A stretch of 37,787 bases of DNA from Thermoanaerobaculia bacterium (lineage in GTDB: Bacteria; Acidobacteriota; Thermoanaerobaculia; Multivoradales; J023). A program made the position numbers and the translations under genes. Below are positions 6,123 through 25,547 of the stretch, piece after piece. The stretch lies in assembly GCA_028066595.1 (NCBI GenBank), contig JALCBJ010000065.1, positions 1 to 37,787 on the forward strand, given 5' to 3'. Under the pieces are notes generated by a model. The model searched no databases and was not told where the DNA came from. It saw only the letters and a program-made list of their open reading frames with translations. Every line of letters begins with the position of its first letter. Positions within the stretch are counted from its first letter, which is position 1.

Positions 6123-6136
6123 GAGCCTCCGAAGGC

Positions 6137-6460
6137 CTACACTTCGGTTTCCAAGACGGCCGGCTCCACCGACTCGGTGGCTTCGAGTACCGCTTGCTCC
6201 ACCAATTCGGCTAGAAACGCCTCGACGTCTTTCCGTACCGTTTCGGGGTCGCCTTCGGTCTCGAGCGTCAAGGTCTCGACGATGTCCTCAGGCTTCTGGC
6301 CGGCCTCGACGAGCTCGAGAATCCGCGTGCCGGTCGGATTGAGACCCATGACCTGGCTTCCCGCGAGCTGCAGGACCACGGCTTCGTCACCGACCACTCG
6401 AAAGCGTATGTCTTCGCGAAGACGGTAGTGCCGCTTCACGACAGTCGTTCCCCGCGACAT
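6137..6460 (-). CDS. PqqD-like RRE peptide chaperone of cassette 1
   Basis: A 107-residue PqqD-family protein. The core is winged-helix/RRE-like: HYRLREDIRFRVVGDEAVVLQL, then the hallmark GSQVMGLNPTGTRILELVEAGQKPEDIVETL and the helix VRKDVEAFLAELVEQAVL. PqqD-type RRE (RiPP recognition element) domains hold the leader peptide and present it to the maturase. A Glu/Val-rich C-terminal tail extends past the domain. Its ATG is only 11 bp from the ATG of the divergent kinase gene, so its promoter must lie within the kinase coding sequence or the mRNA must be almost leaderless. The partners in the cassette are the kinase, rSAM1 and precursor 1. Confidence 0.85.
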   Translation of the reverse strand: MSRGTTVVKRHYRLREDIRFRVVGDEAVVLQLAGSQVMGLNPTGTRILELVEAGQKPEDIVETLTLETEGDPETVRKDVEAFLAELVEQAVLEATESVEPAVLETEV

Positions 6461-6465
6461 ACACT
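6435..6465 (+). promoter_or_regulatory. Putative leaderless promoter of the cassette-1 kinase
   Basis: TTCACG (6435-6440), 19-base spacer, TACACT (6460-6465). The last base of the -10 lies 7 bases before the A of the ATG at 6472, so transcription would begin at the start codon. The element sits inside the first codons of the divergent pqqD gene. Confidence 0.4.
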
Positions 6466-6471
6466 GTGCCT

Positions 6472-8501: not shown

Positions 8502-8710
8502 GACGAGATGGGTCCAGACGAGCAGGTTACGGGATTTGCCTTGGCAGGCGGCGAGCAGACCGTGGCGAAGCTTTCCATCGGCTCGACGAAGACGATCCGC
8601 GGAGGTTCATAGACCTGGGTCCCGCCCTGAGACCTCCCGGATGTACGCGCCGAGGCCGAAGATCCTCTGACGGATGCCGCAGGTGCGGAGGATGGGCGTA
8701 CGGGCCTCAT
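8498..8710 (-). CDS. Candidate RiPP precursor peptide 1 (YEPP leader motif)
   Basis: Encodes 70 residues between the C25 peptidase and rSAM1, with 4-bp overlaps on both sides (ATGA at 8707-8710, GTGA at 8498-8501). The supported part starts at Tyr34: Y-E-P-P-R-I, then VFVEPMESFATVC (Cys52), SPPAKANPVTC (Cys63) and the end SSGPISS. YxxP followed by a hydrophobic residue is the leader element bound by RRE domains in lasso systems. Precursor 2 shares YEPP, a Cys about 18-20 residues later, and a C-terminal Ser. Residues 1-33 are S/R/A-rich with poor third-base GC. The +1 frame over the same bases (8607-8723, GTG start) looks more like coding sequence, so a one-base frameshift near 8610 is possible. 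Too small for most gene callers. Confidence 0.65.
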   Translation of the reverse strand: MRPVRPSSAPAASVRGSSASARTSGRSQGGTQVYEPPRIVFVEPMESFATVCSPPAKANPVTCSSGPISS

Positions 8711-11700
8711 TCTTCGTTGTCACCGGTCGGTGGATCGGGATGAGTCGGTTCCAGAGCATCGAAGCGGAAGATCGTGGCCGAGTCACCGAGCAACACATAG
8801 GTACCGAGCGGACCGATAGGCGATCCAGATGCCGCCACGTCCGCCTTGACTTCGTGGATCAGATCACCGAGACGTTGCCTGCGCAGACCCGAGCGGTCTC
8901 GCCACGGTGCTCGCCGGGACAAGTCTCCGGGTTGGAGCAGCCGACGGTGAAAGCGCTCGCCGAGCGCGCGGGATGCCTGATGGGCCTCCGGTGCGGTCGG
9001 CGACCATACCGCCACCGCGCCGCTGTTTTCTAACGTGACGAGACCGGCACCCAGGCTCGGAAAGCCGGGCACTTCGAATCGGTTCATCAAGCAGGTCAGA
9101 CCCGTTATTACGGTGGCGGGTCCGTCGATCGACCCCAGATCGGCCAGCTCGAGGAGGCGGTCGTCGGACCACACATCGCTGCCACCATGACCGTAGTAGT
9201 TGGCGAGGGCCGTGCCAGACGCGAGCTGATCGAAGAGACGGGCCCGGAGACGGTCGCGGCCGAGCTCCTCGAGGTCGAGTTCGAGAACGGACGCGGATCC
9301 TTGCCACAAGGTTCCGAGTCGTAGGCTCTCGTGCCGAAAGTCGATCTCTTCGCTTGGACGGCCTGCATCGGAGATCAGCAAGACTCCGGAGCTCGGTCCG
9401 CCGGACTCGTAGGCGATGAGCTTGTCGACGAAGGCGTCCAGCTCGGTCATCGTCGCCGCGGGAATTCGGCCCACTGCCAAGTCCGCCAAGCCATCCCGAT
9501 CGAGGTCGACGAACGCATCGTCCGACGCGAAGAGTCCGCTCTCCGTCGCGACCAGCAGCGGCGGCATGAGGTTGGTCGCGCCACCCAACAGGTTGCGGTA
9601 GTCGTAGGTGCCGAGGCCCACGAGAGTCAGGTACTGTGGACCTCGGGGCCATCTGGCTTCGGCCGCGGTGAGGAAGTCCCGGATCGCACGGGGATCGAAG
9701 ACGCCATGGGCGTACTCGTTTATGACCTCGTCGAGCAGGACTCGGCGCGACCTGATGCCGGTGGCGTTGCGATGATCGACCAAGCGGTCGGCCGCGGCCG
9801 CGAGCTCCTGCGGTGCCAAGACGATGTGCTGTGCGGGCTGCGACAGTAGGTGGGGTCGACCGTACGGCAGAACAGATGCCGGCTCGAGAAGGGCCGTAGG
9901 GCCGACCGCTACGTAGGGACCGCTCGTCGTGGGCGCGAAGCTGACCGGCCCGACGAACTGGCCGACGATGTCGACGTGCACGGGGCGCTTCGGGTCGGAG
10001 ATCTCCAGGATACGAGGTGGTGCGGAGAAGTCCTCGAGGGTGACCACAGCGTTGCCGCCCGCGGTGAATTGGAGCTGATCCTCTTCCGCGCGGTAGTGCC
10101 GTGGATACCGGATCTCGAAACCGTCGACGAAGATGAAACTGCTCCCTCCGCCATCCGGCGGCAGAGCAACGACCTCGATTTGATTGACCGTGGGGGCCGG
10201 GGCGCTGAGGAGCAGACCGTCCGGGATCCTCAGCTCGACGTCTCGGATGCTACCGGTCCAGGTATCGGTGCCGAGTAGTGAGCCGTTGAGATAGATCTCG
10301 ACTTCGTGGACGCCGCCAGGTCCGCTGATGCCGGAGCCCAGCAAAGAGATGCGGAACTGTCCTTTCCCGACCACGGCGTCGCTGACCAGGAACTCGGTCT
10401 GCCAGCGATCGAAGCCGGAGAAACCGGCGATGAGGCCGGTCCAGAACCAATAGTCCGATTCGGGATCCAGAGCCAGGACGAGCGGCGCAGTGACGTCTTC
10501 TTCGTAGCGACGCTGCGCAGTATAGGTCGCAGTCGGATCCGGCACTGCCGGTAGCGTCCTTGTGTTACGCATTCTGAGACCAGGCCCGAGGCGCAAGCGA
10601 TAGACGTTGTCGAGCGTGTAGAGACTGTCGATGGCCTCGCCGTAGAACAGGATGCCAGACGGCACTGATGGGTCGTCGGGAGTCCAGGCCACCGACTGGC
10701 CGAGATTTGTCAGCTCCAGCCTTCCCGATGCTATGGCGGCATCGATACGTACGCGGGGCACTCCGAATGCCGCCGCGAGTTCGGAACTCGCAAGTCGATA
10801 CAGACCAGTTTCCCGAAGAGTGATCTCCAGCCCGTCCACCGTGCCGGTGGCAGCCAGACCGGACGTCTGCGCCCCGGGATCGCGTGTTGTTGCGATCGAA
10901 CCACGGACCGGGTCCGCGACGTAGTGCGAGGTCTTCGCGATTCGTTCCAGCCCCATGCTTGCGGCCTGCGAAGCGTCGGGTCGGGCGACGAATGGGCCGA
11001 AGCGCGAGGCGCTGCTGCGGCGATCGATCTCGAACAACACATACCTATCGCCGGGGCGTCCGTCTGGATCGGATACTCGATAGGTCCCGCCTTGAGGGGC
11101 ATCGAACAGCGCCGGAACTGCCCGTTCCGTGACCGGTGTCCAATCGGATCCTGCCGTTCCGACATGGCTCGGTGCGCGCCACAGTTCGTATGCCATCGAG
11201 CCGGCTTCGGACGAGGTCCGCCATTCGACGACCAGTCCACCCGCCGACCCAGGATCGAAGTATGTAGTGAAGTTCTCCAGCTTGACGTAGGTGAGCGCAT
11301 TCTCTTCGACCTGCAACTCGCAGAGTGGGCCGAGAGTATGTGTGGCGCCGGTGAGCTGTGCTCCCGAACACGTAGGCGAGGCACCGCTACAGGTCTCGTC
11401 CACGTAGGTGGCCTCGGTTCCATCGGAGGAGGGTGTCCCCGTGACGTCGAGCACCTGACCGTCCGAGGTGGGAGTCACGTCGACCTCGTACGACAGGATC
11501 TCCGTGTCCCCGGCTGCCACCGTGCCCGGATTCCATTCGACGTCTCCGGTTCCGCCGATCGACGGCTCCGAGGTTACGGTCCCCTGGCTCACCTGATCGT
11601 TTCCTGCGTAGACCACGCCGCTACCGGGCACGTTGGCTACCACCAGATTAGAGCCGGAAAAGGTGAGGGAGTGGTCGGTGGGGTTGACCAGCCGAACCGT

Positions 11701-13488
11701 GACGGTGAAGGTCGAGGTCTGGCCGGTATCTGGTGGGTTCGGGCCGTCGTCGTGACGGACGAACTGTTCGAGATAGGGCTTGTCGGGCGCGTCGCCACCG
11801 TCCGTCGGTAGGTAGAGACGGAAAGCGTTGGTCTCGGGCTGACTGTCCGGATCTGGACCCGGGCCCTGATCGTCTTCGAGGTAGATCTGGGCATAGTTGC
11901 CGGACGATCCGGGACCCGAGATCTCCAGGTCGAGGTCCCAGATCCCGTAGCTCTGGGTGTTGGCGACAGACTCCGTGAACGCCGGAACGGTGTTGCTCTC
12001 CCAGACATCGTTGCCCGAAAGATCGGCGTCGGGCACGGTATCGTGCGCCGCACCGCCGCTGGGCAGAAAGAACTCCATCGACCCCTGGTTTCCTGTATTG
12101 CCGGCATCCCAGTCGAAATCGATGGCGGCGAAGTCGCAGCCCGAAGTGATGTACGGATGGTGGGTATAGCTTCGCGTGCCCGAGGAACCACCATTGTTGT
12201 TGGTTCCGTAGGTCTGGAAGCTCTGAGCGTAGACGTTCAGCTCGGTGCCCCCTGCTCCCGGAGTGCCGTCATGGGCACGGATGCCGATGGCGTTGACGTC
12301 GTCACCGGTGGTGGCGGACTGGTCGACCCGCAGTTCCCAATGCCCGGGCGTCGCGTCTTCGGTCGGGTCTTCTGCCTTGAGCGCTAGTGTGATGGCTCGC
12401 CATTGCTCACCGCCTCCGCTGAGGTCGAAGTCGGCGGCTCCGGTAGCTCCGGCCGACGTTTGGGTGGCATCGGCGATCCCGTGACTGACCGTTCCTCCCC
12501 CGGGCCCGCTCTCGGCGTTCAGGCGCCCGGTATGCCCGGTGGGATATGGCGTTCCGCTGAGATCGTCGTCGTCGGCCGCGTACATCCGTACCAGCATCGT
12601 GTTGGGCACGGTCGTCGTCACGCTGGGTGCCGACGGCGTATCGTTGTTTCCGGTGTTCGTTCCAGAGACGTCGATCGGGCTGCTGGTGTCGACCCCGGAG
12701 TAGCAGGCGACGGCCGCGACGACTTCTTGTCCCCCGGTCCAGGTGAAGGTCACGGTGGCGGAACCGGTGACGTCGGAGGCCACGGCAGTACGGCGAAAGA
12801 CCTCGAGCCGCGCCGAGCCGCCGCTGGCGTTTCCTTGGTTGATGAGGGTCCAGCCGCTCGGTGTACCGACGTTGGGACTTCCATCGGTGGCCACACTGGC
12901 TAACAGGAGATCGCCTGTAGCGCACGGTGAGCCGGGGATCGTCACCGAGATCGACGTCACATTACTCGATTGCGTCGCGGAATTCAGAGCCTCGAAGGCC
13001 GGTGGGGTCCTGGGATCGTCGCTATCGTAGAAGGTCAACCATGCGTTGTCGCCACCGGTGGGTAGGGTGGCGGATCCGGTGGTGAACTGCGTCCCTTGCA
13101 CGGTACCGAATGGGTCGCGCAGGCTGTAGTCGGCCGTGGTGCCACCTGAGCGCTGCTCGTCGCGATTGGCCGCCGCCTCGCCGACGCCGGCCACCACGTC
13201 GCCATCGAAGATGTCGATGACCAAACGGGAGAGACCAGGCGGTACCTCGATGAAGTAGGCGTAGTAGGTCTCAAGGCCCCCCGCATCGGTGACAAAGTCG
13301 CCATGAGACCGCGGTGCGCCGTCTCCTTGGATCGGAAGGAGCTCAGTGGTTCCAGTGCTACCAGCCCACAGGGGAGCGCCCGACAGGAGCGCGGTCAAGA
13401 TCCAGGACAGTGTCCGAACTCGTGAAGAGCACAACCCGACCGAGAGACTCGTCGAACCGTTTCGATGCGCTGGCGCGTCCTGTTTCAT
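8707..13488 (-). CDS. Giant secreted C25 (gingipain/PorU-type) cysteine peptidase of cassette 1
   Basis: A 1593-residue exported protein. The signal peptide is near residues 25-45 (LSWILTALLSGAPLWAG). The N-terminal beta-rich region is interrupted by a module with TPSGWTLINQG at about 165-375. A DUF11-like domain lies near 590-690 (STFTVTVRLVNPT). A fibronectin-like GGLVVEWRTSSEAGSMAYELWR domain near 750-830 is shared with the C25 protein of cassette 2. The C25 catalytic domain is about 1219-1545: THHALLG-like LTLVGLGTYDYRN, the Asp-rich DLDRDGLADLAVGRIP, catalytic His1434 in NYYGHGG and Cys1466 in LTCLMNR. The 32-residue spacing is as in gingipains, so the dyad looks intact. It is first in an operon with precursor 1 and rSAM1, which makes it a candidate leader protease or effector acting outside the inner membrane. 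No clear Shine-Dalgarno precedes the ATG. Confidence 0.85.
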   Translation of the reverse strand: MKQDAPAHRNGSTSLSVGLCSSRVRTLSWILTALLSGAPLWAGSTGTTELLPIQGDGAPRSHGDFVTDAGGLETYYAYFIEVPPGLSRLVIDIFDGDVVAGVGEAAANRDEQRSGGTTADYSLRDPFGTVQGTQFTTGSATLPTGGDNAWLTFYDSDDPRTPPAFEALNSATQSSNVTSISVTIPGSPCATGDLLLASVATDGSPNVGTPSGWTLINQGNASGGSARLEVFRRTAVASDVTGSATVTFTWTGGQEVVAAVACYSGVDTSSPIDVSGTNTGNNDTPSAPSVTTTVPNTMLVRMYAADDDDLSGTPYPTGHTGRLNAESGPGGGTVSHGIADATQTSAGATGAADFDLSGGGEQWRAITLALKAEDPTEDATPGHWELRVDQSATTGDDVNAIGIRAHDGTPGAGGTELNVYAQSFQTYGTNNNGGSSGTRSYTHHPYITSGCDFAAIDFDWDAGNTGNQGSMEFFLPSGGAAHDTVPDADLSGNDVWESNTVPAFTESVANTQSYGIWDLDLEISGPGSSGNYAQIYLEDDQGPGPDPDSQPETNAFRLYLPTDGGDAPDKPYLEQFVRHDDGPNPPDTGQTSTFTVTVRLVNPTDHSLTFSGSNLVVANVPGSGVVYAGNDQVSQGTVTSEPSIGGTGDVEWNPGTVAAGDTEILSYEVDVTPTSDGQVLDVTGTPSSDGTEATYVDETCSGASPTCSGAQLTGATHTLGPLCELQVEENALTYVKLENFTTYFDPGSAGGLVVEWRTSSEAGSMAYELWRAPSHVGTAGSDWTPVTERAVPALFDAPQGGTYRVSDPDGRPGDRYVLFEIDRRSSASRFGPFVARPDASQAASMGLERIAKTSHYVADPVRGSIATTRDPGAQTSGLAATGTVDGLEITLRETGLYRLASSELAAAFGVPRVRIDAAIASGRLELTNLGQSVAWTPDDPSVPSGILFYGEAIDSLYTLDNVYRLRLGPGLRMRNTRTLPAVPDPTATYTAQRRYEEDVTAPLVLALDPESDYWFWTGLIAGFSGFDRWQTEFLVSDAVVGKGQFRISLLGSGISGPGGVHEVEIYLNGSLLGTDTWTGSIRDVELRIPDGLLLSAPAPTVNQIEVVALPPDGGGSSFIFVDGFEIRYPRHYRAEEDQLQFTAGGNAVVTLEDFSAPPRILEISDPKRPVHVDIVGQFVGPVSFAPTTSGPYVAVGPTALLEPASVLPYGRPHLLSQPAQHIVLAPQELAAAADRLVDHRNATGIRSRRVLLDEVINEYAHGVFDPRAIRDFLTAAEARWPRGPQYLTLVGLGTYDYRNLLGGATNLMPPLLVATESGLFASDDAFVDLDRDGLADLAVGRIPAATMTELDAFVDKLIAYESGGPSSGVLLISDAGRPSEEIDFRHESLRLGTLWQGSASVLELDLEELGRDRLRARLFDQLASGTALANYYGHGGSDVWSDDRLLELADLGSIDGPATVITGLTCLMNRFEVPGFPSLGAGLVTLENSGAVAVWSPTAPEAHQASRALGERFHRRLLQPGDLSRRAPWRDRSGLRRQRLGDLIHEVKADVAASGSPIGPLGTYVLLGDSATIFRFDALEPTHPDPPTGDNEE

Positions 13489-14078: not shown

Positions 14079-15008
14079 TCAGATGCCGGTGCGGTCGTCC
14101 GACCGTAGTTCTCTCAGGAGATCGACGAGCAGAGCAGCTGCGTCCTGATTGGGCCGAAAACGCAACAGGAACGCAGGTACCTGCGAGACCAGGTTGCCGA
14201 GAGTTTCGAGCACGCGCGCCGCTCTTCCGGGGTCGTACCAGGGCACAGAGGCTGTCGGCAGAATCCGGTGAAGTGCCTCCGCTCTACCCATCGGATCGAG
14301 GACCTCGTGTTGGTCATGCTCGAGGAATACGAGACCGACGAGTAAAGCACTCTCAGGGGAGGCGATACGTCCTTCTCCGGCCCAGGGAGTGCCCCAGGCC
14401 TTCCATGCTTCCGCGGTGTGCGCGGAAGACCGCCCGGAAGGCCTTGCGATCAGGATGCGATCGTCGCTCAGGCCCAGAAGATCCGGGTCCGCTCGACGAA
14501 GTAGTCGTGAGATCGTGGTCTTGCCGGCTCCCGATACGCCCGCCACCACGAGGGCTCGACCTTCGTGAGCCCACCCGGCGGAATGCAGGACCAGACCATC
14601 GAGAGGCGCCAGCATGTGGATCGCCAACAACTGGTCGAGGGGATAGCAGAGCGGCGTGGCAATGGTCTTCCGCTCGGCGTCGATCAGGTGGTTGCCGGGC
14701 GCGATAGAGATCTCGTCGTCAGCTACCGTGGCCCGCCACAGGAAAGAGCCCCGGGGGTCCGGCAACGTCCAGCGTACGCACCCCGAGGCGCCGGTCTCGA
14801 GCTGCCACCCGCTGGTAGCCAGGGCCAGATCCCAAGCGGAACGGGGATCGTCGGGTGGATCGACGTCGACTCGCAGGGGGACGACGAACTCGGCGGGGGT
14901 GCTGGCGGACAGAAACGGCTGTGCCAAGGGATCCGGGTCGCGTTCGATTCGCCAACCGCTTGGAGCGGTGACCTCGAAACGCAGCGGCCCGATCTGTCTT
15001 GAGGTCAC
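14079..15008 (-). CDS. HPr-kinase-like peptide kinase of cassette 2
   Basis: A 309-residue paralogue of the cassette-1 kinase. The N-terminal half is a beta-rich uncharacterised region (RFEVTAPSGWRIERDPDP). The kinase half shows VLHSAGWAHEGRALVV, P-loop G157-VSGAGKTT, LSDDRIL, GTPWAGEG and SVPWYDP, matching HprK-related kinases of RiPP clusters more closely than kinase 1 does. Predicted to transfer phosphate from ATP to a Ser/Thr or Ser carboxyl-terminal residue of the peptide, by analogy to PadeK/ThcoK. The GTG start overlaps the PqqD2 stop (GTGA at 15005-15008), so it is translationally coupled as the last gene of the five-gene operon. Distinct from HprK, which needs an N-terminal domain absent here. 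Confidence 0.82.
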   Translation of the reverse strand: MTSRQIGPLRFEVTAPSGWRIERDPDPLAQPFLSASTPAEFVVPLRVDVDPPDDPRSAWDLALATSGWQLETGASGCVRWTLPDPRGSFLWRATVADDEISIAPGNHLIDAERKTIATPLCYPLDQLLAIHMLAPLDGLVLHSAGWAHEGRALVVAGVSGAGKTTISRLLRRADPDLLGLSDDRILIARPSGRSSAHTAEAWKAWGTPWAGEGRIASPESALLVGLVFLEHDQHEVLDPMGRAEALHRILPTASVPWYDPGRAARVLETLGNLVSQVPAFLLRFRPNQDAAALLVDLLRELRSDDRTGI

Positions 15009-15283
15009 GCGTCGTCTACGAGAAGACCGCAGTCTCTAAATTGCTCGAGCAATGCAGCGACATCCTCCGCAGCCCGATCTCGCTCTACCTCGAACTCGGC
15101 GACTACTGCATCGACCAAGCTTCGCTCCGTCGTCCCATCTTCGAGCCGTTCCCAGACGAAGGCTGCGACTTCGTTGAGCGCGAAGATCTCCATCTGTTCG
15201 GCCACGAAGCCGCGGAGCGGTACCAACAGGGTCTCATCGAGGATCCTTCTCGTAGCGACGTCTGGAGTACGTCTTTCCGTCAC
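15005..15283 (-). CDS. PqqD-like RRE protein of cassette 2
   Basis: A 92-residue PqqD-family protein. Visible core: VATRRILDETLLVPLRGFVAEQMEIFALNEVAAFVWERL (beta hairpin, then helix), DGTTERSLVDAVVAEFEV and the C-terminal helix AAEDVAALLEQFRDCGLL. This is the arrangement of RRE domains that bind leader peptides. It is the normal length for PqqD and lacks the acidic tail of the cassette-1 paralogue. The GTG start overlaps the stop of precursor 2 (GTGA at 15280-15283) and its stop overlaps the kinase start, so precursor, chaperone and kinase are made together. The obvious binding site on the peptide is the YEPP motif. Confidence 0.85.
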   Translation of the reverse strand: MTERRTPDVATRRILDETLLVPLRGFVAEQMEIFALNEVAAFVWERLEDGTTERSLVDAVVAEFEVERDRAAEDVAALLEQFRDCGLLVDDA

Positions 15284-15462
15284 GAGCCCGGTTGGTTACA
15301 AGGCACGGCATCACAGGTCGCCCCGAAGGGCCCCGGGCCTGCACCCAGTTTGCATCCGACCGAAAGGACCTCCTCGGCTCGTAGGCTGATGCGCCGTACG
15401 ACCGGAGGTTCGTATTTTCGTTTGTGTTCCGCGAGAGAGCGCTGAGTTGTTCTTGAATCCAT
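15280..15462 (-). CDS. Candidate RiPP precursor peptide 2 (YEPP leader motif)
   Basis: A 60-residue peptide. The leader is basic and polar up to Lys16. It is followed by Y17-E-P-P-V-V, RRISLRAEEVLSVGC (Cys37), then a Gly/Pro-rich core KLGAGPGPFGATC (Cys50), DAVPC (Cys55) and the end NQPGS. The length, YxxP-hydrophobic leader motif, EE-hydrophobic stretch just before the first Cys, and three core Cys are typical of radical-SAM RiPP precursors. It lies 15 bp after the rSAM2 stop and overlaps the PqqD2 start (GTGA). Core residues available for modification include Cys37, Cys50, Cys55 and several Gly, Pro and Phe. The C-terminal Ser60 is a possible kinase target. ATG is the start; a strong Shine-Dalgarno is not visible. 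Confidence 0.8.
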   Translation of the reverse strand: MDSRTTQRSLAEHKRKYEPPVVRRISLRAEEVLSVGCKLGAGPGPFGATCDAVPCNQPGS

Positions 15463-15477
15463 GGAACTTTATCTGTT

Positions 15478-16695
15478 TCAATCGCCGCAGCCGCAGGAAC
15501 TTCCGCAGCCGGTGTTAGTCGTATTCGAGAGGATGGTAAAGCGTGAGCGACGTTGGGCAGGGCTGGGTTCTTCCGCACCGGCGCCGGCTCTTTGCAGAGC
15601 GGCTTCGATCGAAAGGCCTTCGCGCAGGCCCGTGAGCGTATTCCAACGGATGTTCGTCGTTGCACAGACGTAGTCCGACTTGACGTCTTCGGCCCCGTTC
15701 TCCTGGTAGTTGAAGGCGGGACAGCCGGTGCAGGCGCTCCGCATCTCGCAACTATTGCAGCCGTAGTCGGCGCGTGGCGTGTTGCCGCGGAGGCGCCCCA
15801 ACTCGTCCTCCCACAGCTCACCGAAGCTGCGTCCTTCGGTGGGGTACTGATACTGCGTGGTCATGAGGCAGGGGGACGCATTGCCGAATGGGTCGACGTA
15901 GAAGTTCGTGACGCCGGCGCCACAAACGTAAGTGGTCTCGGCCGGCGGCAGGTCCTGACGCGCTTCGATGTAGGACTGCCAGCTTTCGACCCGCGAAGGA
16001 TCTTCGAGAAGTTCCTGGCGGACCGCCGTTTCGGGACTGACCCGGAGACCCAGCACCGAGTCGTCGCGATCGGGCAAGCAGGGAAAGATCGCCGAATCGA
16101 GACGGAATGACACGCCGAAGTCCTCCGCGATGGACCGCATGAGACTGATCTCATGACGGTTCGGTTCCATCAGTACGGTCTTGAGCGCTACCCGGATCCC
16201 GCCGTCGAGGAGCCGCTGGATTCCGGCCAGAGCGCGGGGGAACGAACCCGGAATTCGCGTGATCGCTTCGTAGGTTTCGGCAGTACCGCCGTAGATACTG
16301 ACTTCGACCACGTACGGTGGTAGCTCGCGAAACAGCTCGACGATCGCGTCGCTGGCCAGAATGCCGTCGCAGAAAATCGTCACGATCAGGCCGCGTTCCC
16401 GCGCGTGGCGATAGATCTCGGGAAAGTCCTTGCGCACCATCGGATCGCCGCCGGTGATGAGCAAGTACAAGCATCCTGCCTCGACCATCTCATCGATCAG
16501 GCTGAGAACTCGGTCGGTGGACATCTCCATCGAGCGTTTGGCGCGCTGATCTTCTTGGGGGCCGAGATAGCAGTGGACGCACTTCAGGTTGCAGCGGCTC
16601 GTGAGCTCCAGGATTCCGGAGACCGGTACCCGCTCGCGGGCGAGCCGGTCTCTGAATTCCTTCATCCAGACTGCATCGTCGTGTCCCAGGTTCAC
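15478..16695 (-). CDS. Radical SAM/SPASM peptide maturase of cassette 2
   Basis: A 405-residue radical SAM enzyme with a full-looking SPASM domain. SAM cluster motif C35-NLKC39-VHC42 after LELTSR; TGGDPMVRKDFPE (here GGD rather than GGE); VEVSIYGGTAETYE. SPASM starts at Cys258 (CGAGVTNFYVDPFGNASPC) and continues with GCNSCEMRSACTGCPAFNY and SDYVC. This gives enough cysteines for two auxiliary [4Fe-4S] clusters. The extreme C-terminus (last about 20 residues) is an odd Cys/Gly tail ending GCGSSCGCGD (Cys397, 401, 403). The start was set at GTG 16695 because it overlaps the stop of the upstream C25 gene (GTGA at 16692-16695); the frame extends upstream only inside that gene. Expected to modify precursor 2, encoded 15 bp downstream. 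Confidence 0.9.
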   Translation of the reverse strand: MNLGHDDAVWMKEFRDRLARERVPVSGILELTSRCNLKCVHCYLGPQEDQRAKRSMEMSTDRVLSLIDEMVEAGCLYLLITGGDPMVRKDFPEIYRHARERGLIVTIFCDGILASDAIVELFRELPPYVVEVSIYGGTAETYEAITRIPGSFPRALAGIQRLLDGGIRVALKTVLMEPNRHEISLMRSIAEDFGVSFRLDSAIFPCLPDRDDSVLGLRVSPETAVRQELLEDPSRVESWQSYIEARQDLPPAETTYVCGAGVTNFYVDPFGNASPCLMTTQYQYPTEGRSFGELWEDELGRLRGNTPRADYGCNSCEMRSACTGCPAFNYQENGAEDVKSDYVCATTNIRWNTLTGLREGLSIEAALQRAGAGAEEPSPAQRRSRFTILSNTTNTGCGSSCGCGD

Positions 16696-19600
16696 GGCGT
16701 GTCTCCCGGCTGGTAGGGCAGCGCCGGATCGCCGACGAGGGCGACGGTGCGCGCTGCGGCCGGATCGCCACCGGCCGCTACCCACTCTCTCACGCTACGT
16801 AGTAGTGCGGCGCCGATCGTGGTGTCATCGGCGTCCGGCCGGAAGTAGCGAGTCATGAGGCCGACACCTTCTGCATTGAATTGCAGCGCCGTCGGTGAGA
16901 TGACCGCGATGGCTCCGCCGCTGCTGCCGAGCAGCAGTTCCTCGGTCAGGCTCTCGAAGCCTGGCAGATCGGTGCGGCCGACGTTGCACGTCATGGCAGC
17001 GACCACAGGTCGCTCGAAGCCGTTGGTGAGCGTCGCCACATCCGACGAGGTCAGCAGCCCTTCGCTGGTAAGGCGGTCGATCCCACCGTGGCCGAGGAAC
17101 GCGACGTAGCCCGCGCCATCGCTGAGGGCGCCGAGCAAGGCCTCGCGTGCCGGCTCTTGAGCCAGTCGGGAAAGGTCTACCTCGAAGGACGTCCACTGCT
17201 TCGGAGCGTTGCTCTGTACGAGGTCGAGATCGCTCGGGAACTCACCTCCAGCATCCGGATCGTCGGCGACCCACAGAGCGGTGGAGCGCCAGGCGCCTGC
17301 GGTGGTCTCTCGGGAAGTGAGGTTGGCGACATAGTCCTCTGCCTCGTCGAGGAAACGCACGGGAATCACACCGAGGGCGAGATCTGAGACGCCGTCTCCA
17401 TCGGTGTCCGCGAGCCTCTGCGCCGAGGGCACGAGGCCGTTCTCCGTGGCGACCATGGGGATGTGAATCAAGTTCTCTCCGACTCCCAGATTGTCCCGGT
17501 AGTCGAACGAACCGTCACCCAACAAAGCCACGTGGGTAGGAGCCGGATCCCAGTGGTCAACAGCCCAGGTCAGCAGACGCTGCACGGCGAGCGGGTCGTC
17601 AGCTCCGTAAGAGAATTCGTCATAGATGTCTTCGATCGGTACGACCCTGGTTGCGAATCCCGAGCTGGCGCGGAGGGCGGCCAGCTGCGTTGCCGCGCTT
17701 TCCAGTCCAGCTCCCGAAACGACCAGGTAGGTCGCGCCCTGGTCACTGGATCGCAAGCTCGAGCTGTAGTCTGGCTCGACCGCTTGGGGCACCGTCGCGG
17801 CGCTGGTGTGGGTGACGAATAGGCTCTTGACGCCATCTGGGACCTCGACGTTACCGTCGGTGATCACGAGTCGTCGTGGTTGATCGGGTCGGGTGCGATC
17901 GAACGCGACCGAATCGGGCTGCAGACCGTCCAGAGCGTACCGGCCAGCCGTCGTTCTGAAGGCGTCGAGGCGATCCCCGATCAGCTCGGCCCGGCGGTCG
18001 TACTCGATCTCGACCCGGTCGAGGTAGAAGATCGCGAAGTCCACCCCCGGGGGCTGGTCGGGAGTGATCGTCACCGTGGTGGAACCTTCACCAACCAGGC
18101 TCGCGGACATCGTGAAGGTGCCGGTGGCGGTCTCCGATCCATCCCACGACACGACGCCGAGCTCGGTGCCACCGACACTGACGCGTGCACGATGGTCGAT
18201 CGGGGCAGTCGTCTCCGAGAATCCCTGGAAGAAGACCCGCAAGGTGACATCGCCGGATCCCGTCGGAGCGGGTGTGGCGATACCAACGCTCTTGGCCTCT
18301 CCGCCGGCTTGATACACCTCCCAATGCCAGAAGTCGGCATCGGGATCGGTAGCCACGGCGGTCACCGGATAGACATCCAACTCGGCTGCGACGAGAGCCC
18401 GTAGTGCCGCAACTCCGCCGCCTCCGCTACCACCGCCGCCCCACCGGGAGACGTCGCCGGTTTCGAAGCCGTCGGCGAAGATGAGTGAACCGATGGCGGG
18501 GACGGCTGAGATCTCGGTTTGCGGACCGAACCGCACCTGCACCACATCACTGGACGAGTAGATCGACTCCGACGACCGCGCCAGGAACAACAGGTCGGAA
18601 CCATCGGCCATCCAACCGACCGGCTGACCTTGTCGCCTGAGCTCGAGGCCGCCGGCCGCGATCGCGGCTTGGAGCTCCGAGACGGGTCGTGACATCGCCG
18701 TCGCCAGGTCTGCAGCGGTGACGCGGATCAAGCCGTCGCCACGGGTGACGATACGAGCGGCGTCTGCGGACGCCTTGGCAGCCTTTTCGGACGAGCGATC
18801 CGTTTCGACCCCGGCGCGACGCCCCGAAGGAGCGAGGTGCGGAGAGGCGGCGAATGAGGTGTCGCTCAGCAGCTTGTCGTCAACGGTGGGGAGGGAGCCG
18901 AGATCGGCCGAATAAGTCGGGCCCAGGAGCCGACCGCTTCCATCGACCAGGCGCTCGACGATTTGATATTCGACCCAGCCGCCACCCGGATTCGGATCGA
19001 CGAGGTGGTAGCGACCGCCCTGCGGGTAGTGGAGGAGAGCCGTTACGGTACCCCTACCGACCTGATGCCACTCGCGCTCCCCCTGGTGGCGTCGGAAGAC
19101 GTCGAAACCGGCCGTGCCGATCTCGGATGCAGTCTCCCAACGCAGGACCACTCGATTGCCTACCCGCCGGACGTCGAAGCTGGCCAGAACCGCATCGGTG
19201 AGGGCCGGAAGTAGATTGATCGCACTGACCGAGTCGTTGTCGCCAGTGTTGGCCGACTCGGCGGTGAGGGTCACGAGATCGCGATAGGTGGTCTGACTGG
19301 GATCGGTGGCACGGCGTAGCTCGTAGGCGACCTGACTTCCGCCAGCGACGACGACCTCGGGCAAGCCGTCGCCGTCCGGGTCGTTGGCACCGCCGACTCC
19401 GCCCAAGATGAAGTCCCAATCGCCGTCTCCGTCGGTGTCACTGGCGAGAAGAGTGTCGGGCGTGCCGTCGCTGTTCGTGTCGACCCATAGCTCCGTCGGG
19501 TGGAGGAACGGATCGAGGCCGAAGAAGGCGCTTGGGCCGACGGAGAGCTCGAACGTGTCGGACGCCGAGCCCTGGTTGAAGAGCGTACCCGGGAAGATCG

Positions 19601-22600
19601 CGGTGTCGCCGCCCTGGACCAGGCGTGTGCCGCCGCCGGCGAGATCGTGGGTCGACGGCAAGACCACCGTCGTCGTATCGCTCGCACCGTCGAAGACGTC
19701 GGGGTCGCCCTGCTGCACTGCGTTCACTACCGTGACCACGGTGTCGCCCTGCAGAGCCGAGGGTGGCGAATCCACGAGAACGAAGAACTGCTGCGAGGCG
19801 CCGTCGGGCAAGTTGGCGGTATTGCTGATCTGCAGATCGACGCCAGGAGTGAAGACTCCGTCGAAGTTGGTGTCGCCGAAGACCGAAGCCGACCAGCCGG
19901 GTGGATTCGCCGCGCCGCCCATGACGTTGACCGCCGTCAGATCGAAGGTGGCATTGCCGCCCGTGTTGTTGACGACGTAATGTGAGTAGGCGATCGCACC
20001 ATCGACCGTGACCACGCCGGAGTTGTCCGGCAGCAGGACCACCGGTCCGACGTCACTGACGTCCACCACTTCGATCTCGTCGGTGGAAAAGTCCGACAAG
20101 CCCGGATTGAGGTCGGAGGTGCCGATCAAGCGGACGCTCTCCTGGGTGCCCAGCGGCGTACCCGCGGGTACCGTGACCCGCAGGTCGTATTGCACTCGGT
20201 CACCGGGTGCGATGGCTCCGGTGTTGATGGGTCCTCCGACGTCCCAGGTACCATCGCCGGTCAGATCGATAGCCAGCACCGCGCCGGTGGTTGGATCGAG
20301 CAGCTCGACCTGCCAGCCGAGTTCGCTGTCTACGACGATGGTGTACGAGTCGTCGGTATTCCCTGTGTTGACGATGTCGTGAGCGAAGGTGAGGGTCTGA
20401 TCGGTGGGGAAGAGCGCTTCGGCAAAGCCTGCGTTGTTGTACTCGACCACCAGTCCGAGATGGACGACGTCGTCTGTCGCGGTGGCTTGCAGTGGCGCAC
20501 CGAGCTCGACACTGTCCACCGTCGCAGTGTTGACGATCTGCGAGATCGAAGTGCTGATGTTTGCGTCGACGGTGACCTGGAAGGTGACGACCAATGATTC
20601 GTCTGCTGCCAGATCGACGTCGAAGCCCGGTGGCTCGATCAAGGCCGGAGGGGCGCCGGTGGCGCCCAGAGGTGTGGAGCTTGCCGTTACGTCCACGCCA
20701 GTGAAGTCGACTCCCTGGACCCAGGCTGGGAAAACAGATCCGGAGTTGGCGCGGGTTAGAGCGACGTTGGTGTTCGTCGTGTACTGGGCCGCGATGATTG
20801 CGTCGTCCCATGCCTGTTGGTTCGTGAAGTCGTTGACGTCGTGCGCGTTGAAGACCACGGCGAATCGCTTCGTCGCGTTCGTCGCCGCGTCGACGGTGAC
20901 GTTGACCGTGGTCGCGCCGAAGTCGCCGTCGGGCTTGAAGCGGTAGTCGACGGCCAGGTCCGGATGGGTCATCGTCCAGACCTCGACACTCTTGGTCGTT
21001 GGGGCCTCGGCACCCACCGCGACAGTCGTTTCCGAGGCGTTCTGCGTGACGCCGTTGCCGAGGGTGATGGCGAAACGACCCTCTTGCGTCTCGTTATCGC
21101 TACCGTGGCCGGTTCCCCAAACCCAAGTGTTGTCTCGGTCTACGGACGTGCCCAGTGCCGCGGTGTTGTATTCACCAGCTGCGTTGATGCCGTCGCCGGA
21201 ATTGGTTCCCGTGACCTGAACCCGATTCACGTCCCATTCACTGCCCCATTGGACGACCATCACGGTGCTCTCGGCGTCGTCGCGATTGGAGCCGCCACCA
21301 TTGCGAGTCCAGTTGATCGTGTTCGTTCCGGAGGGGAAGAGGCGAACGTGGCAGCTGGGGAATTCGCCGATGTCGTCGCCGCTGGCGTCTACCTGGCAGC
21401 CGGCGCCTTCCGGTCCACCGAGGAGCAAGATCTGATCGATATTGGCGCCCCAACCGGTCGCCGACGTGGTCGAGCCCGTCGTGGCGGTGCCGGTGTGGGT
21501 CGCGACCTCGACGCTCAGAAGCTCGAATCCTCGGGTCGTGCAATTGGACAGACACTCCACTACGGTGGCGATACCGGTCCAGGTGCTGGAGGCGTCTTCG
21601 CGGGCGAAGTCGAGCTCGTCCGCTGCACCTGTAGCAGCCAGATCGCCGGTGCCGAAGGGATCGGCGACCAGAGCGGCGTAGTGGGCCGCAGGTTCGTTGT
21701 TGTCGTCGCCTGCCGAGCCTCGCAGCATGACGAAGTACTCTGCGGCGAGGTCTTGATCGAGGGTGATCGTTGCCGTCGTATCGGGAATGTCGAGCACATA
21801 CTCGCGGGTGCGGAACACCTCGGTGGCGGGGCTCTGCAGCGTGGCGGAGCCGCTCGCCGGAACGTAGGTCGTGCCGGTGGGCAGCAGGTCGTCCAGATCG
21901 ATGTTGTTCTGGGTGATCCCGCTCGTGTTGTCGACCGTGATGGTGTAGGTCACGACCTGCCCGGGAGAGACCTGTCCACCTGCATCCGAGACCTTGTCGA
22001 TCACCAGGTCCGGCGGATCGTAGCCCACCGGGTTCGTGGGGTTCGCACCGGCGACGAGGGCCGCCGTCACCAGCGGCTGGTTGGCCGTCGTGAGAACCGC
22101 GCCGGAGGGGAAGTCGGGGTCGTCTTCGCGCACGTCGATGGTGGCTTGGTTGCCGGGGACCACGGCAAACGGCAGCACCCAGTCGCCGTTGGCGTCGGTG
22201 ACCACAGTAAAGGTCGAGGGACCACTCCCCTCGTCGTAGGTGACGTCGACGCTGATGTTCGGGATTCCTCCCTCACCTGGATCGAGGACGCCGTCGGCAT
22301 CGAGGTCCAAGAAGACGGTGCCGCTGAGAGTCGCTGTGGTGCCGGCGAGAATCGGCAGCTGGATGAGGTTGGTATCGGTCGGTGGGACCTCAGTCGAGGT
22401 CACCGTCGCCTGGTTGGGCAGGAACTGGCCGCCGGTGCCGGGATTGACCGTCACCTCGAAGCGGAACGTTGCGGACTCGCCCGGGCCCAGAAGAGGTCCG
22501 ACGACCAGCTGTACCCGTGTCGGACCCGCCAGCAGCGTGCCGGCGTCGGCGTCAGCGGCGTCCGTGACGGCAGCGAACGGCTGAGCGTTACGACGCCAGG

Positions 22601-25547
22601 TCATCGAGTCGGGAACATACGTGGAGTTGGTGGCGATCGGATCGATGATCGTGACGTTGCTCGCCGAGGCGGAACCCGGATTGGTGACGACGATCTCCCA
22701 CGGCACGGTTTCGCCGGGGTGGAGGGGACCGGCCGGACCCGACTTGACCGCGACGATGGAAGGCGCTGAGATCGGGGTCTCGACCTCATTCGAGAGCAAG
22801 GCAGGGGTCTGGACGCTGCCGTAGCTCGCCTGGTTGACGATGACGTCACCTGCCGATGCCGTCGGATTGATCTGCACGTCGAAGCTGAGCGCGAAGGGAC
22901 CCGTCATCGCAGTTACTGTGGGTGCGGTGAACTGAATCGAGTTCGAGCCGGAGAGGAATGTGCCGCTGAAAGGCCCGCTTACGACGATCGATCCGGGCAC
23001 GAACGTCGTATCCGCGGGAATCGCGTCGAGGATCACGACGCTGGTTTCGTCGGTGACCCCGTTGTTCGACACCTGGAGCGTGTAGGTCAGGATCGAGCCC
23101 GGCTGAGCAAGGCCTGCTCCTCCGACGGCGACGGATTTGGAAATCGAGGCGTCGGTGCGCGCGACATCAGCAAGTGCGGTCGGCCGGAAGACCGAGCCGT
23201 TGAGCGTTCCCTGCCCCTCGGCCTCGTTCGTCAGAACGCCGATGGGACCGGCGGGAATGTTGATCTGGTAGGAGATCGTGATCCGTTGATTGATCGGCAG
23301 GGTATCGGGCGAGAACACCCAGGAAAGCCGATCGCGGCCGGTGGTCGGATCGGTCGCGCACGACGGATCGCTTGTGTCTTGGGAAAAGTTCGGGTAGGTG
23401 ACGAGCGAGGAGCCAGGGACGAAATCGGCACAGACGACACCGGTCGGAAGCAGATCCGTAGCGCTGACCACCGTCAGATCTCCGACATCGCCGGAGTCGA
23501 GCGTGACCGTGTACGTGACCAGACCACCCGTCGTCGGCACCGAGACAGGGTCTGCGATCTTGTCGATCAGCAGGACCGCCTCGATGTTGGCTTGGAAGAC
23601 GGTATAACCGGTATCAAGGATCGGGTCTCCGCCTATGGCCTGGTCGGTATCCTGGCCCCAGGAAAGCGCCACCGGCTTGTCGGCGACGACGATCGTTCCA
23701 GTGTTGTCATAGTCGGTGTAATCGTAGATACGGAGCGCGCGCAGCTCGTTGACGATGTAGGTCGTGGCGTCCGGGCCGACGGTCCAGCCAGGTGGCGTTG
23801 GCGTCGGAGTCGCATTGGCGGGATCGGGAACGTCGTCGCTATTGGTGTCGATGACGTCGAAAACCCCGTCCGCATCGAGATCTACTCGCACTCTCGTATT
23901 GTTCTGAGTGGCTGCGACGAAGACCGGGGATCGATTGATCGAGTCGCATACGTTCTCGATGACCGGTGGGGGATCGCAATCGGGATCGTTGGCAGCACGC
24001 GCCGCGGGCAGCGATTGGGCCACTGGATCGTTGACACCCGGAGCGAACGAGACGGTGTAGGTGTCCTGAAGGAATTTGGTGGCGATCCAGGAGTGGCCCC
24101 AGTCATTCGCCGGGCTCTGAGAGTCGTAGGAGCTGACTCCCCAGAACAGTCGGTTGCTCGTCAGGCGTACGGTAGAGCCGGTCGGTACGGCGCGACCCAC
24201 CTCGTCTTGGTAGTTGACCGCTTGCCCCGCCGGGATGTTGATGGTGCTCGTACCAACGGTATCCGTCGCGGAGACACTCACGGCGTTGAACTGATCGGGA
24301 TTGATGATGAAGAGGTTGAGCGGACGATTCCCTTGGAGCGCCGGGTCGTCTCCAGGTGCCGAAGTGACGTAGTCGGTGCCGTGGAGCACATCCGGGAGGA
24401 GTAGGTAGAACCGCGTCGAGAACGTACCGTCGCCGCCCGTCAGCACCATGCCCGAGACGGGGGCGCTGGTCGACACCTTGGTGCCGGCGTCGATGGTGCT
24501 GGCGATGGCAGGAATGGCCGTACTGTCGATGAAACCGCGCGAGCTGTAGTGCTGCCCTTCGTCGAGAGTGAAGTTGACGATGCCTGAAGACGGGCTGTTG
24601 ATCGAGACGTTGGTGCCGTCTTCATACGACACTAGCTGGAGGAACGCGTACTTCAACGACTCCGTCGTCGTGTTGTCGCCGGCGTACAGGTCGTCTCCGA
24701 TGGGGATGGTGTAGGAGACGGCGTTCTCGACGGCCTCCCGTGGAATGACCTCGCTAGCGCCACCGATGAACGGCGACAGCGGATTCTGGGAGTGCACCAG
24801 CGAGATGGGGCCACCACTGGTCAGCAGGCGATCGGCACCGTCATAGCGGATGTCGGCGGGGTTGCGCGGCAGCGGAACCGAGCATCGACGATCAGCCGGT
24901 GCAGCCGGGATGGCGACCGCGCAAGCAGTGCCGGCGGTGGGCACCGGCTGGCGAGCGATGCAAGGCGCGACGCCGCAGGTAGGCAGGCTCTGATTGGAGT
25001 TGAAGGTGAGCTCTGTACCTTTGAAGAGGGTGTCGGGCGTCGGCCCTACGCAACTGACGGCCGGATCGGTCGAGAAATCACAGGCTTGACCGTTGGCAAC
25101 GTTGCCGTCTCCAAGAACCAAAGTCGTCGCCTGTACCGGATTCAGGATGTCGGCCTCGAAACCGTCCTCCCAGTGGTCGTAGATGACCACCTGGGAGTCC
25201 GCAGAGGCGGTCAGCGTCACGACGGAATTCATCGCCGAAAGGAATCCGGCGCCGATGTCGAACGAGGTTGCAGTTTCGGCGGCTGCAATGGTCTGCAACA
25301 TGTCCCAGACATGCTCTTCGTTGCCGACGATCCGAAAGTCTTGGTAGCCCGTTGGTACGGACGCTGCTCGCAGCGAATCCGCGACGAGGCCGAACAACAT
25401 GGCGCACGCCGTGAAACAGATCAGGCCTCGTAGGCGCGAGCCGGGTTGCAGGAATGTCTTACCAAGCAGGAACGACCGTCGCCAAGTCGTCGACTCTGGC
25501 GTGGTTGGGGTCCCCCTTCGGAGCGAATCGATATCAGTCTGGGCCAT
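16692..25547 (-). CDS. Giant secreted C25 cysteine peptidase with DUF11/SdrD-B repeats, cassette 2
   Basis: A 2951-residue exported protein, first gene of the cassette-2 operon. A long N-terminus precedes the hydrophobic signal segment GLICFTACAMLFGLVADS (about 40-60). Residues about 65-620 form an IgGFc-binding-like region (TATSFDIGAGFLSAMNS; YDHWEDGFEADI). DUF11-type repeats follow (ITYTVTLDSGDVGD-like, ILTYTLQVSNNG, VPWEIVVTNPGS). An SdrD-B-like module has GTVFLDLDADGVLDPGEGG, then more beta domains. A fibronectin-like domain VVLRWETASEIGTAGFDVFR is shared with the other C25 protein. An inserted DGFETGDVSRW plus Gly/Ser linker lies at 2359-2369. The C25 domain is about 2600-2935, with His2820 in FLGHGG and Cys2854 in AMTCNVGR. 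GGAGG precedes the ATG. Likely surface-exposed; could process the RiPP or other surface proteins. Confidence 0.86.
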   Translation of the reverse strand: MAQTDIDSLRRGTPTTPESTTWRRSFLLGKTFLQPGSRLRGLICFTACAMLFGLVADSLRAASVPTGYQDFRIVGNEEHVWDMLQTIAAAETATSFDIGAGFLSAMNSVVTLTASADSQVVIYDHWEDGFEADILNPVQATTLVLGDGNVANGQACDFSTDPAVSCVGPTPDTLFKGTELTFNSNQSLPTCGVAPCIARQPVPTAGTACAVAIPAAPADRRCSVPLPRNPADIRYDGADRLLTSGGPISLVHSQNPLSPFIGGASEVIPREAVENAVSYTIPIGDDLYAGDNTTTESLKYAFLQLVSYEDGTNVSINSPSSGIVNFTLDEGQHYSSRGFIDSTAIPAIASTIDAGTKVSTSAPVSGMVLTGGDGTFSTRFYLLLPDVLHGTDYVTSAPGDDPALQGNRPLNLFIINPDQFNAVSVSATDTVGTSTINIPAGQAVNYQDEVGRAVPTGSTVRLTSNRLFWGVSSYDSQSPANDWGHSWIATKFLQDTYTVSFAPGVNDPVAQSLPAARAANDPDCDPPPVIENVCDSINRSPVFVAATQNNTRVRVDLDADGVFDVIDTNSDDVPDPANATPTPTPPGWTVGPDATTYIVNELRALRIYDYTDYDNTGTIVVADKPVALSWGQDTDQAIGGDPILDTGYTVFQANIEAVLLIDKIADPVSVPTTGGLVTYTVTLDSGDVGDLTVVSATDLLPTGVVCADFVPGSSLVTYPNFSQDTSDPSCATDPTTGRDRLSWVFSPDTLPINQRITISYQINIPAGPIGVLTNEAEGQGTLNGSVFRPTALADVARTDASISKSVAVGGAGLAQPGSILTYTLQVSNNGVTDETSVVILDAIPADTTFVPGSIVVSGPFSGTFLSGSNSIQFTAPTVTAMTGPFALSFDVQINPTASAGDVIVNQASYGSVQTPALLSNEVETPISAPSIVAVKSGPAGPLHPGETVPWEIVVTNPGSASASNVTIIDPIATNSTYVPDSMTWRRNAQPFAAVTDAADADAGTLLAGPTRVQLVVGPLLGPGESATFRFEVTVNPGTGGQFLPNQATVTSTEVPPTDTNLIQLPILAGTTATLSGTVFLDLDADGVLDPGEGGIPNISVDVTYDEGSGPSTFTVVTDANGDWVLPFAVVPGNQATIDVREDDPDFPSGAVLTTANQPLVTAALVAGANPTNPVGYDPPDLVIDKVSDAGGQVSPGQVVTYTITVDNTSGITQNNIDLDDLLPTGTTYVPASGSATLQSPATEVFRTREYVLDIPDTTATITLDQDLAAEYFVMLRGSAGDDNNEPAAHYAALVADPFGTGDLAATGAADELDFAREDASSTWTGIATVVECLSNCTTRGFELLSVEVATHTGTATTGSTTSATGWGANIDQILLLGGPEGAGCQVDASGDDIGEFPSCHVRLFPSGTNTINWTRNGGGSNRDDAESTVMVVQWGSEWDVNRVQVTGTNSGDGINAAGEYNTAALGTSVDRDNTWVWGTGHGSDNETQEGRFAITLGNGVTQNASETTVAVGAEAPTTKSVEVWTMTHPDLAVDYRFKPDGDFGATTVNVTVDAATNATKRFAVVFNAHDVNDFTNQQAWDDAIIAAQYTTNTNVALTRANSGSVFPAWVQGVDFTGVDVTASSTPLGATGAPPALIEPPGFDVDLAADESLVVTFQVTVDANISTSISQIVNTATVDSVELGAPLQATATDDVVHLGLVVEYNNAGFAEALFPTDQTLTFAHDIVNTGNTDDSYTIVVDSELGWQVELLDPTTGAVLAIDLTGDGTWDVGGPINTGAIAPGDRVQYDLRVTVPAGTPLGTQESVRLIGTSDLNPGLSDFSTDEIEVVDVSDVGPVVLLPDNSGVVTVDGAIAYSHYVVNNTGGNATFDLTAVNVMGGAANPPGWSASVFGDTNFDGVFTPGVDLQISNTANLPDGASQQFFVLVDSPPSALQGDTVVTVVNAVQQGDPDVFDGASDTTTVVLPSTHDLAGGGTRLVQGGDTAIFPGTLFNQGSASDTFELSVGPSAFFGLDPFLHPTELWVDTNSDGTPDTLLASDTDGDGDWDFILGGVGGANDPDGDGLPEVVVAGGSQVAYELRRATDPSQTTYRDLVTLTAESANTGDNDSVSAINLLPALTDAVLASFDVRRVGNRVVLRWETASEIGTAGFDVFRRHQGEREWHQVGRGTVTALLHYPQGGRYHLVDPNPGGGWVEYQIVERLVDGSGRLLGPTYSADLGSLPTVDDKLLSDTSFAASPHLAPSGRRAGVETDRSSEKAAKASADAARIVTRGDGLIRVTAADLATAMSRPVSELQAAIAAGGLELRRQGQPVGWMADGSDLLFLARSSESIYSSSDVVQVRFGPQTEISAVPAIGSLIFADGFETGDVSRWGGGGSGGGGVAALRALVAAELDVYPVTAVATDPDADFWHWEVYQAGGEAKSVGIATPAPTGSGDVTLRVFFQGFSETTAPIDHRARVSVGGTELGVVSWDGSETATGTFTMSASLVGEGSTTVTITPDQPPGVDFAIFYLDRVEIEYDRRAELIGDRLDAFRTTAGRYALDGLQPDSVAFDRTRPDQPRRLVITDGNVEVPDGVKSLFVTHTSAATVPQAVEPDYSSSLRSSDQGATYLVVSGAGLESAATQLAALRASSGFATRVVPIEDIYDEFSYGADDPLAVQRLLTWAVDHWDPAPTHVALLGDGSFDYRDNLGVGENLIHIPMVATENGLVPSAQRLADTDGDGVSDLALGVIPVRFLDEAEDYVANLTSRETTAGAWRSTALWVADDPDAGGEFPSDLDLVQSNAPKQWTSFEVDLSRLAQEPAREALLGALSDGAGYVAFLGHGGIDRLTSEGLLTSSDVATLTNGFERPVVAAMTCNVGRTDLPGFESLTEELLLGSSGGAIAVISPTALQFNAEGVGLMTRYFRPDADDTTIGAALLRSVREWVAAGGDPAAARTVALVGDPALPYQPGDTP
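18441..18473 (-). other. DGFETGDVSRW motif inside the C25 peptidase
   Basis: Encodes Asp2359-Trp2369. It is followed by a Gly/Ser-rich linker and sits in a stretch that otherwise aligns by eye with the cassette-1 peptidase, where it is absent. The same pattern ends the 1931-residue repeat protein at 36738-36770. Confidence 0.6.

Follow-up and report, generated by a model that had tools for sequence, protein, structure and literature searches.

Putative RRE-guided precursor peptides with three conserved cysteines adjoin radical-SAM and HPr-kinase-like genes in Acidobacteriota

The window analysed here, a stretch of 37,787 nucleotides, carries on its minus strand a 60-aa precursor peptide gene (MDSRTTQRSLAEHKRKYEPPVVRRISLRAEEVLSVGCKLGAGPGPFGATCDAVPCNQPGS; 15280..15462) with an ATG start and a TGA stop. 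The gene order on this strand is a giant C25 protein, a radical-SAM (rSAM)/SPASM maturase (15478..16695), the precursor, a PqqD-type discrete RRE (15005..15283; PF05402, 2.2e-18) and an HPr-kinase-like protein (14079..15008). The RRE gene starts with a GTG at 15283 that overlaps the precursor TGA as GTGA. Start/stop overlaps of the same form join the C25 gene to the rSAM gene and the RRE gene to the HPr-kinase-like gene, whose GTG start overlaps the RRE stop. From the sequence, the likely rSAM start is the GTG at 16695 that overlaps the C25 stop; searches with this protein used 15478-16698. Because the precursor lies 15 nt from the rSAM stop (15478) and overlaps the RRE gene, translational coupling is plausible. 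The initial annotation had described an ORF at 15280-15462 with Cys37, Cys50, Cys55 and one Phe, translated in a coupled manner between maturase and RRE genes. All of these residues are present, the Phe being Phe46, and the gene is placed as described. Its identity as a precursor and its partnership with the RRE and the rSAM protein are supported by a short ORF adjoining rSAM/SPASM and PqqD genes and by a conserved leader motif. The features expected of a RiPP precursor that works with a discrete RRE and a SPASM rSAM enzyme were found in the window peptide and in its family.

A precursor search of 59 genomes gave three matches, G000 (the window's own genome), G003 and G006; the one other genome of the window's genus had no match. 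Profile searches covered 396 genomes of the phylum Acidobacteriota, where a three-sequence profile matched 31/396 at E 1e-3 and a 29-sequence profile 38/396 at E 1e-4. An rSAM scan of genome contigs led, among the best 80 of 126 matches, to L041 (Thermoanaerobaculales), L042 and L043, each with a precursor. At least one Nitrospirae MAG (L042) and one Deltaproteobacteria MAG (L043) outside Acidobacteriota carry the gene. No known family name fits the peptide, as Pfam and NCBIfam gave no convincing match in 29 precursors and the best E values (0.034 and 0.084, respectively) are at chance level. In G003 and G006 the orthologues occupy an unchanged position among the neighbouring genes. These two differ at 31/177 bases with dN 0.043 and dS 0.98, indicating purifying selection, and both findings speak against a chance ORF; G003/G006 is the pair used, dS between the window and L039 not being computable.

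In an alignment of 29 sequences (A3), Y17, P20, C37 (15352..15354, minus strand), K38 and C50 (15313..15315, minus strand) are invariant. L27, E31, C55 (15298..15300, minus strand; 90% or more) and S60 are nearly so. The wider set comprised 51 loci, each with one precursor match whose E value was 1e-5 or lower. L223 was left out of C-terminal counts since its contig ends inside the peptide, leaving 50 complete members. These 50 share ancestry, and the profile by which the rest were detected was built from 29 of them, so family counts are not independent draws. Cys-Lys occurs in 48/50 complete precursors. From the first conserved Cys onward there are three core Cys in 47/50, four in 2 and two in 1. 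The initial proposal that the Cys residues are likely modification sites is supported. A TGA noted inside the G390:C96 frame was considered as a selenocysteine codon and rejected, because this stop precedes the start codon and is not in the core.

A recurring set of genes surrounds the precursors. Within 2 kb of the 50 precursors, some of whose loci are cut by contig ends, lie rSAM genes in 44 cases, HPr-kinase-like genes in 44, both in 42 and PqqD genes in 39. S26-like peptidase genes are within 2 kb of 23/50 and within 5 kb of 33/50; C25 genes are within 2 kb of 13/50 and within 8 kb of 25/50. One locus, L177 (G086), had no match at all in the cassette scan and its row was dropped. No HPr-kinase-like gene lies within 2 kb at L165, L211, L221, L222, L224 and L225, and no rSAM gene at L211, L215, L217, L221, L222 and L225. 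L215 nonetheless has PqqD, HPr-kinase-like and C25 genes beside its precursor. Since each is absent within 2 kb of 6/50 precursors, neither the rSAM nor the HPr-kinase-like gene is an obligate companion of the peptide. The HPr-kinase-like partner, the C-terminal Ser/Thr and this wider conserved gene set went beyond the initial annotation. Three orphan precursors, L221:7969-8160, L222:7591-7779 and L225:3798-3986, are of a WxxP...RPEExVLLACK type with Ser as last residue; around them, no rSAM, PqqD or HPr-kinase-like match was found in 12-16 kb.

The window leader contains YEPP at residues 17-20 (15403..15414, minus strand), the predicted RRE-binding YxxP motif. A [Y/W]xxP motif is present in 51/51 precursors, with Y in 47/51, W in 4/51 and P at +3 in every case (YxxP 46 and WxxP 4 among the 50 complete members). 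Discrete RREs bind [Y/W]xxP leaders, according to the available text of two papers (PMC13381572; PMC12710340). Judging from motif and from homology, the PqqD-type protein, a discrete RRE, would bind Y17-x-x-P20 and present the peptide. Glu is found at Y/W+14 in 44/51 precursors and lacking in 7/51, and the residue after it is mostly Ala (28) or Val (9) among the 51. In linear polyphosphorylated peptides (LPP; Popov et al., Nat Commun 2026, PMC13381572), the available text describes cleavage by a SpI-like peptidase at a distance of 16 residues from the Tyr, Y(-16), and a Glu at -2. Because E at Y/W+14 matches the register of LPP E(-2), with the cut after -1, cleavage is predicted after EEV32. 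The predicted leader is thus residues 1-32 (15367..15462, minus strand) and the predicted core residues 33-60 (LSVGCKLGAGPGPFGATCDAVPCNQPGS; 15283..15366, minus strand). The 'EE-hydrophobic' leader end proposed at the outset agrees with this register. The first Cys sits one residue further on in 8/51 members, in which the leader register may therefore differ.

An S26/SipW-like serine peptidase, where present, would make this cut. One Ser, one His and one Gly-Asp are invariant in 19 S26-like proteins. In the L041 protein the spacing between the Ser and the His is 39, equal to that between S29 and H68 of LppS in the available text of PMC13381572, and the invariant Asp follows the His by 15 residues, versus 25 for D93 and H68 of LppS. 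The S26 profile had no match in the window genome or its cassette, an empty result that carries little weight.

The maturase of the window matches PF04055 (1.1e-20) and, below its cut-off, SPASM (0.0085). Seven SPASM-type Cys are invariant in 19 rSAM sequences. The nearest PDB relative of the rSAM profile by sequence is SkfB (1.7e-28), followed by PqqE; SkfB is a thioether former in the available text of PMC8326336. The best fold matches are SuiB (Z 24.4; 4.1 A over 319 residues), anSME (23.4), SkfB (23.4) and 5why (22.9). 5why, with a title on sactipeptide thioether formation, and 5wgg are also close to the rSAM protein by fold. Because SuiB, anSME, SkfB and 5why score close together, fold does not discriminate the chemistry. 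Thioethers are favoured by the Cys pattern and the sequence of the enzyme, not by its fold. Against curated sactipeptide models (bits/cut-off, among the best 25 of 75 families) the window rSAM scored 94.7/625 for StsB, 65.1/300 for SkfB and 57.5/850 for AlbA, and neither it nor the 29 precursors reached the cut-offs of curated sactipeptide or ranthipeptide models. The most likely reaction of the SPASM rSAM enzyme on the Gly/Pro/Ala-rich core would be the formation of thioethers that join Cys to other residues, with up to three cross-links at -2 Da each.

We asked whether the enzyme might instead make C-C or C-O cross-links of the streptide/cyclophane type, leaving the Cys for other uses, for example disulfide formation once exported. 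SuiB, which forms a C-C bond, ranks first by structure, though close to anSME and SkfB. RiPPs of this kind often use aromatic residues, yet 21/50 cores have no F, W or Y. Phe46 was considered as a conserved acceptor and rejected, as it is not conserved in A3. Furthermore, no core residues other than Lys38 and the last Ser are as well conserved in A3 as the Cys. This alternative is unlikely, and the initial suggestion of C-C cross-linking to an aromatic residue is weakened accordingly.

The window rSAM protein ends in a flexible Cys-rich tail, GCGSSCGCGD (15478-15520), and 13 other loci have tails like GCGTGGCGSCS. A three-Cys tail is present in 14/44 frames with a recognisable SPASM motif, five frames lacking that motif having been set aside, and is absent in the relatives L039, L040 and L041. 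The string 'SRFTILSN', which occurs in the window tail and again on the opposite strand of L008, is not backed by matching DNA and was taken as chance.

The HPr-kinase-like protein of the window has no Pfam match above a cut-off, and its three NCBIfam matches are all below cut-offs. At E 1e-3, HprK_rel_B matches 17/18 proteins of this type and hpr-ser 8/18. H142, G157, S159, G160, G162, K163, D182 and R184 are invariant in 18 sequences, which keep the His, the P-loop GxSGxGK and the Asp-x-Arg motif. The structural model (pLDDT 89.4) matches the HPr kinase/phosphorylase 1kkl_A with Z 11.4 (3.3 A over 128 residues), and PEPCK structures rank above or level with it (Z up to 12.6). HPr kinase and PEPCK share a fold. 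By its His, P-loop and Asp motifs and its modelled fold, the protein has the HPr kinase/phosphorylase fold.

The predicted target of this enzyme is the C-terminal Ser60 (15283..15285, minus strand). The last precursor residue is Ser in 48/50 and Thr in 2/50. Ser or Thr is thus last in 50/50 precursors versus 21/209 frames of five other gene families at the same loci (rSAM 4/55, HPr-kinase-like 7/48, PqqD 6/47, C25 0/25, S26 4/34). Paeninodin and pseudomycoidin, phosphorylated lasso peptides, combine an HPr kinase homologue, a C-terminal Ser and a discrete RRE in the available text of PMC8498205. As in paeninodin, the HPr-kinase-like enzyme would phosphorylate Ser60 (+80 Da, possibly repeated). 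The two Thr-ended precursors, L165:4513-4686 and L216:8458-8622, both come from genome G425, and L165 has no HPr-kinase-like match in 13 kb around its precursor.

The kinase-like protein could also act on another substrate or regulate, with the C-terminal Ser kept for export or processing, for example. Ser or Thr is likewise the last residue of the 6/50 precursors that have no HPr-kinase-like gene within 2 kb, some cassettes adjoin SLBB/Wzz polysaccharide export genes, and the LPP kinase targets Ser3 of its peptide in the available text of PMC13381572. Conversely, the 44/50 precursors with such a gene within 2 kb mostly have it less than 500 bases away, and the conservation of Ser/Thr in 50/50 and the paeninodin precedent (PMC8498205, available text) also speak for a peptide substrate. 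We regard this alternative as rather doubtful. Phosphorylation of Ser60 remains the preferred reading, against which stands the LPP kinase that modifies Ser3 and rejects Thr, given two members here that end in Thr.

The upstream neighbour of the rSAM gene encodes a 2951-aa protein (16692..25547, minus strand) that combines DUF11 domains with a gingipain-type C25 peptidase domain at its C-terminus (PF01364, 6.6e-57). One His (GHG) and one Cys are invariant in 13 C25 domains. A C25 gene lies within 2 kb of 13/17 members of the G-C-K type versus 0/34 others (Fisher p 5e-9, uncorrected for relatedness; the pattern catches L216 through a later Cys). The window belongs to this C25-linked subclass, in which the secreted-looking protease may act outside the cell. 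Together, the C25 and S26-like partners suggest export. This argues against the peptide being a metal-binding or cofactor precursor of the PQQ or mycofactocin kind rather than a cross-linked secreted peptide. Such cofactors use a core Tyr, Glu or Val-Tyr, none of which is conserved in A3. Mycofactocin maturase and PqqE models do match the rSAM protein below their cut-offs (among the best 25 of 75 families), and the Cys-rich tail of the maturase itself also speaks for such a precursor, but a metal-binding or cofactor role is quite improbable.

A sibling cassette occupies 4296-13488 of the window. It consists of an ABC exporter (4296-6122, plus strand), a PqqD-like match (6173-6442, minus), an HPr-kinase-like ORF (6466-7407, plus), an rSAM/SPASM gene (7302-8501, minus), a precursor-like ORF with the C-terminal CSSGPISS (8498-8710, minus) and a second C25 giant (8707-13488, minus). 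Peptides resembling its precursor occur at L012 and L013.

For the chemistry and biological role of the family, we infer an RRE-guided RiPP with rSAM-cross-linked Cys, probably thioethers, a phosphorylated C-terminal Ser and a leader cut after EEV32, a reading to which we give a probability of roughly 0.6. From the LPP and paeninodin precedents and the motif register, the predicted order is RRE binding, rSAM cross-linking, Ser60 phosphorylation and leader removal. More tentatively, at somewhat less than even odds, the family may form a RiPP class not described before, one that recurs in Acidobacteriota and is present in single Nitrospirae and Deltaproteobacteria MAGs. Its products would carry rSAM thioether rings on three conserved Cys and a phosphorylated, perhaps also glycosylated, C-terminal Ser, and a SpI-like peptidase would release them. 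For the G-C-K subclass, a C25 protease that is secreted and dedicated to the peptide would cleave or use it outside the cell.

A description of this gene set was not found in the open-licence PMC papers searched. Among the papers listed, none was found with an HPr-type kinase and a rSAM maturase on one precursor, and no paper combines HPr kinase, radical SAM, PqqD and RiPP; one paper pairs HPr kinase, radical SAM and precursor, and its sole HPr kinase passage concerns lasso peptides. The same literature gave nothing on peptidase C25 with radical SAM, nor on the precursor motif strings. PMC10885120 contains no occurrence of C25, gingipain, clostripain, C11 or signal peptidase, and the LPP paper (PMC13381572) none of 'radical SAM' or 'Acidobacter'.

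Several known systems share parts of the cassette. The SynChlorMet models (NCBIfam TIGR04248-04251) for PqqD (ScmD), HPr-kinase-like (ScmC) and SPASM rSAM (ScmE/F) proteins match weakly; window proteins score, in bits/cut-off among the best 25 of 75 families, 19.2/125 for ScmC, 29/100 for ScmD, 83.6/400 for ScmE and 82.5/400 for ScmF. The SynChlorMet cassette also has two rSAM models, whereas the window cassette has one rSAM gene. A paper on SynChlorMet was not found in the open-licence PMC literature. Because its proteins fall below these cut-offs, the cassette was not filed as Scm. Sactipeptides and ranthipeptides, in the available text of PMC8326336, share with the family a SPASM rSAM enzyme, several core Cys and possible thioethers, but differ in the HPr-kinase-like and S26-like partners found here. 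The C-terminal Ser with an HPr kinase homologue, as in paeninodin, is found in the precursor family. However, a macrolactam cyclase (Asn-synthetase-like) and a B2 peptidase had no Pfam match in 19 window translations, a subset of the ORFs, so the system was not filed as lasso. The rSAM enzyme stands in place of the cyclase in these 19 translations. Pseudomycoidin also involves a nucleotidyltransferase (PMC8498205, available text).

The likeness to LPP, which the available text of PMC13381572 describes as restricted to Bacillota, extends further. Both have the YxxP leader, E at Y+14, a discrete RRE and an HprK-like kinase. A SpI/SipW-like peptidase is common to both at the family level; the window has the RRE and kinase as in LPP, and no S26-like match in its cassette or genome. 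L161 has an NTP_transf_5 gene (L161:5590-6816), and genes for polysaccharide export lie near the cassettes of L159, L161 and L171 (SLBB/Poly_export at L159:9869-12466; Wzz at L171:13022-15442 and L161:13724-15913). This is LPP-like, as LPP and paeninodin are also near capsular polysaccharide loci in the available text of PMC13381572. Unlike LPP, the family has a SPASM rSAM enzyme, three Cys, a C-terminal Ser/Thr and C25 proteins. Of the LPP motif YxxPxVLxHQxIxFETxxS it shares YxxP and E(+14) but not HQ and FET. The LPP kinase target is core Ser3, where Thr is not accepted (PMC13381572, available text), whereas the predicted core +3 is Ser in 2/51 members and Val35 in the window. Because the motif and Ser3 both differ, the family was not filed as LPP.

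Few characterised RiPPs are known from Acidobacteriota. Among RiPPs there are already examples of radical-SAM cross-linking and, separately, of Ser phosphorylation at the C-terminus. If both act on one peptide, the product would be of a new kind in Acidobacteriota and would connect radical chemistry and giant C25 proteases with processing of the LPP type. The system comes closest to LPP-like processing to which a radical-SAM maturase has been added.
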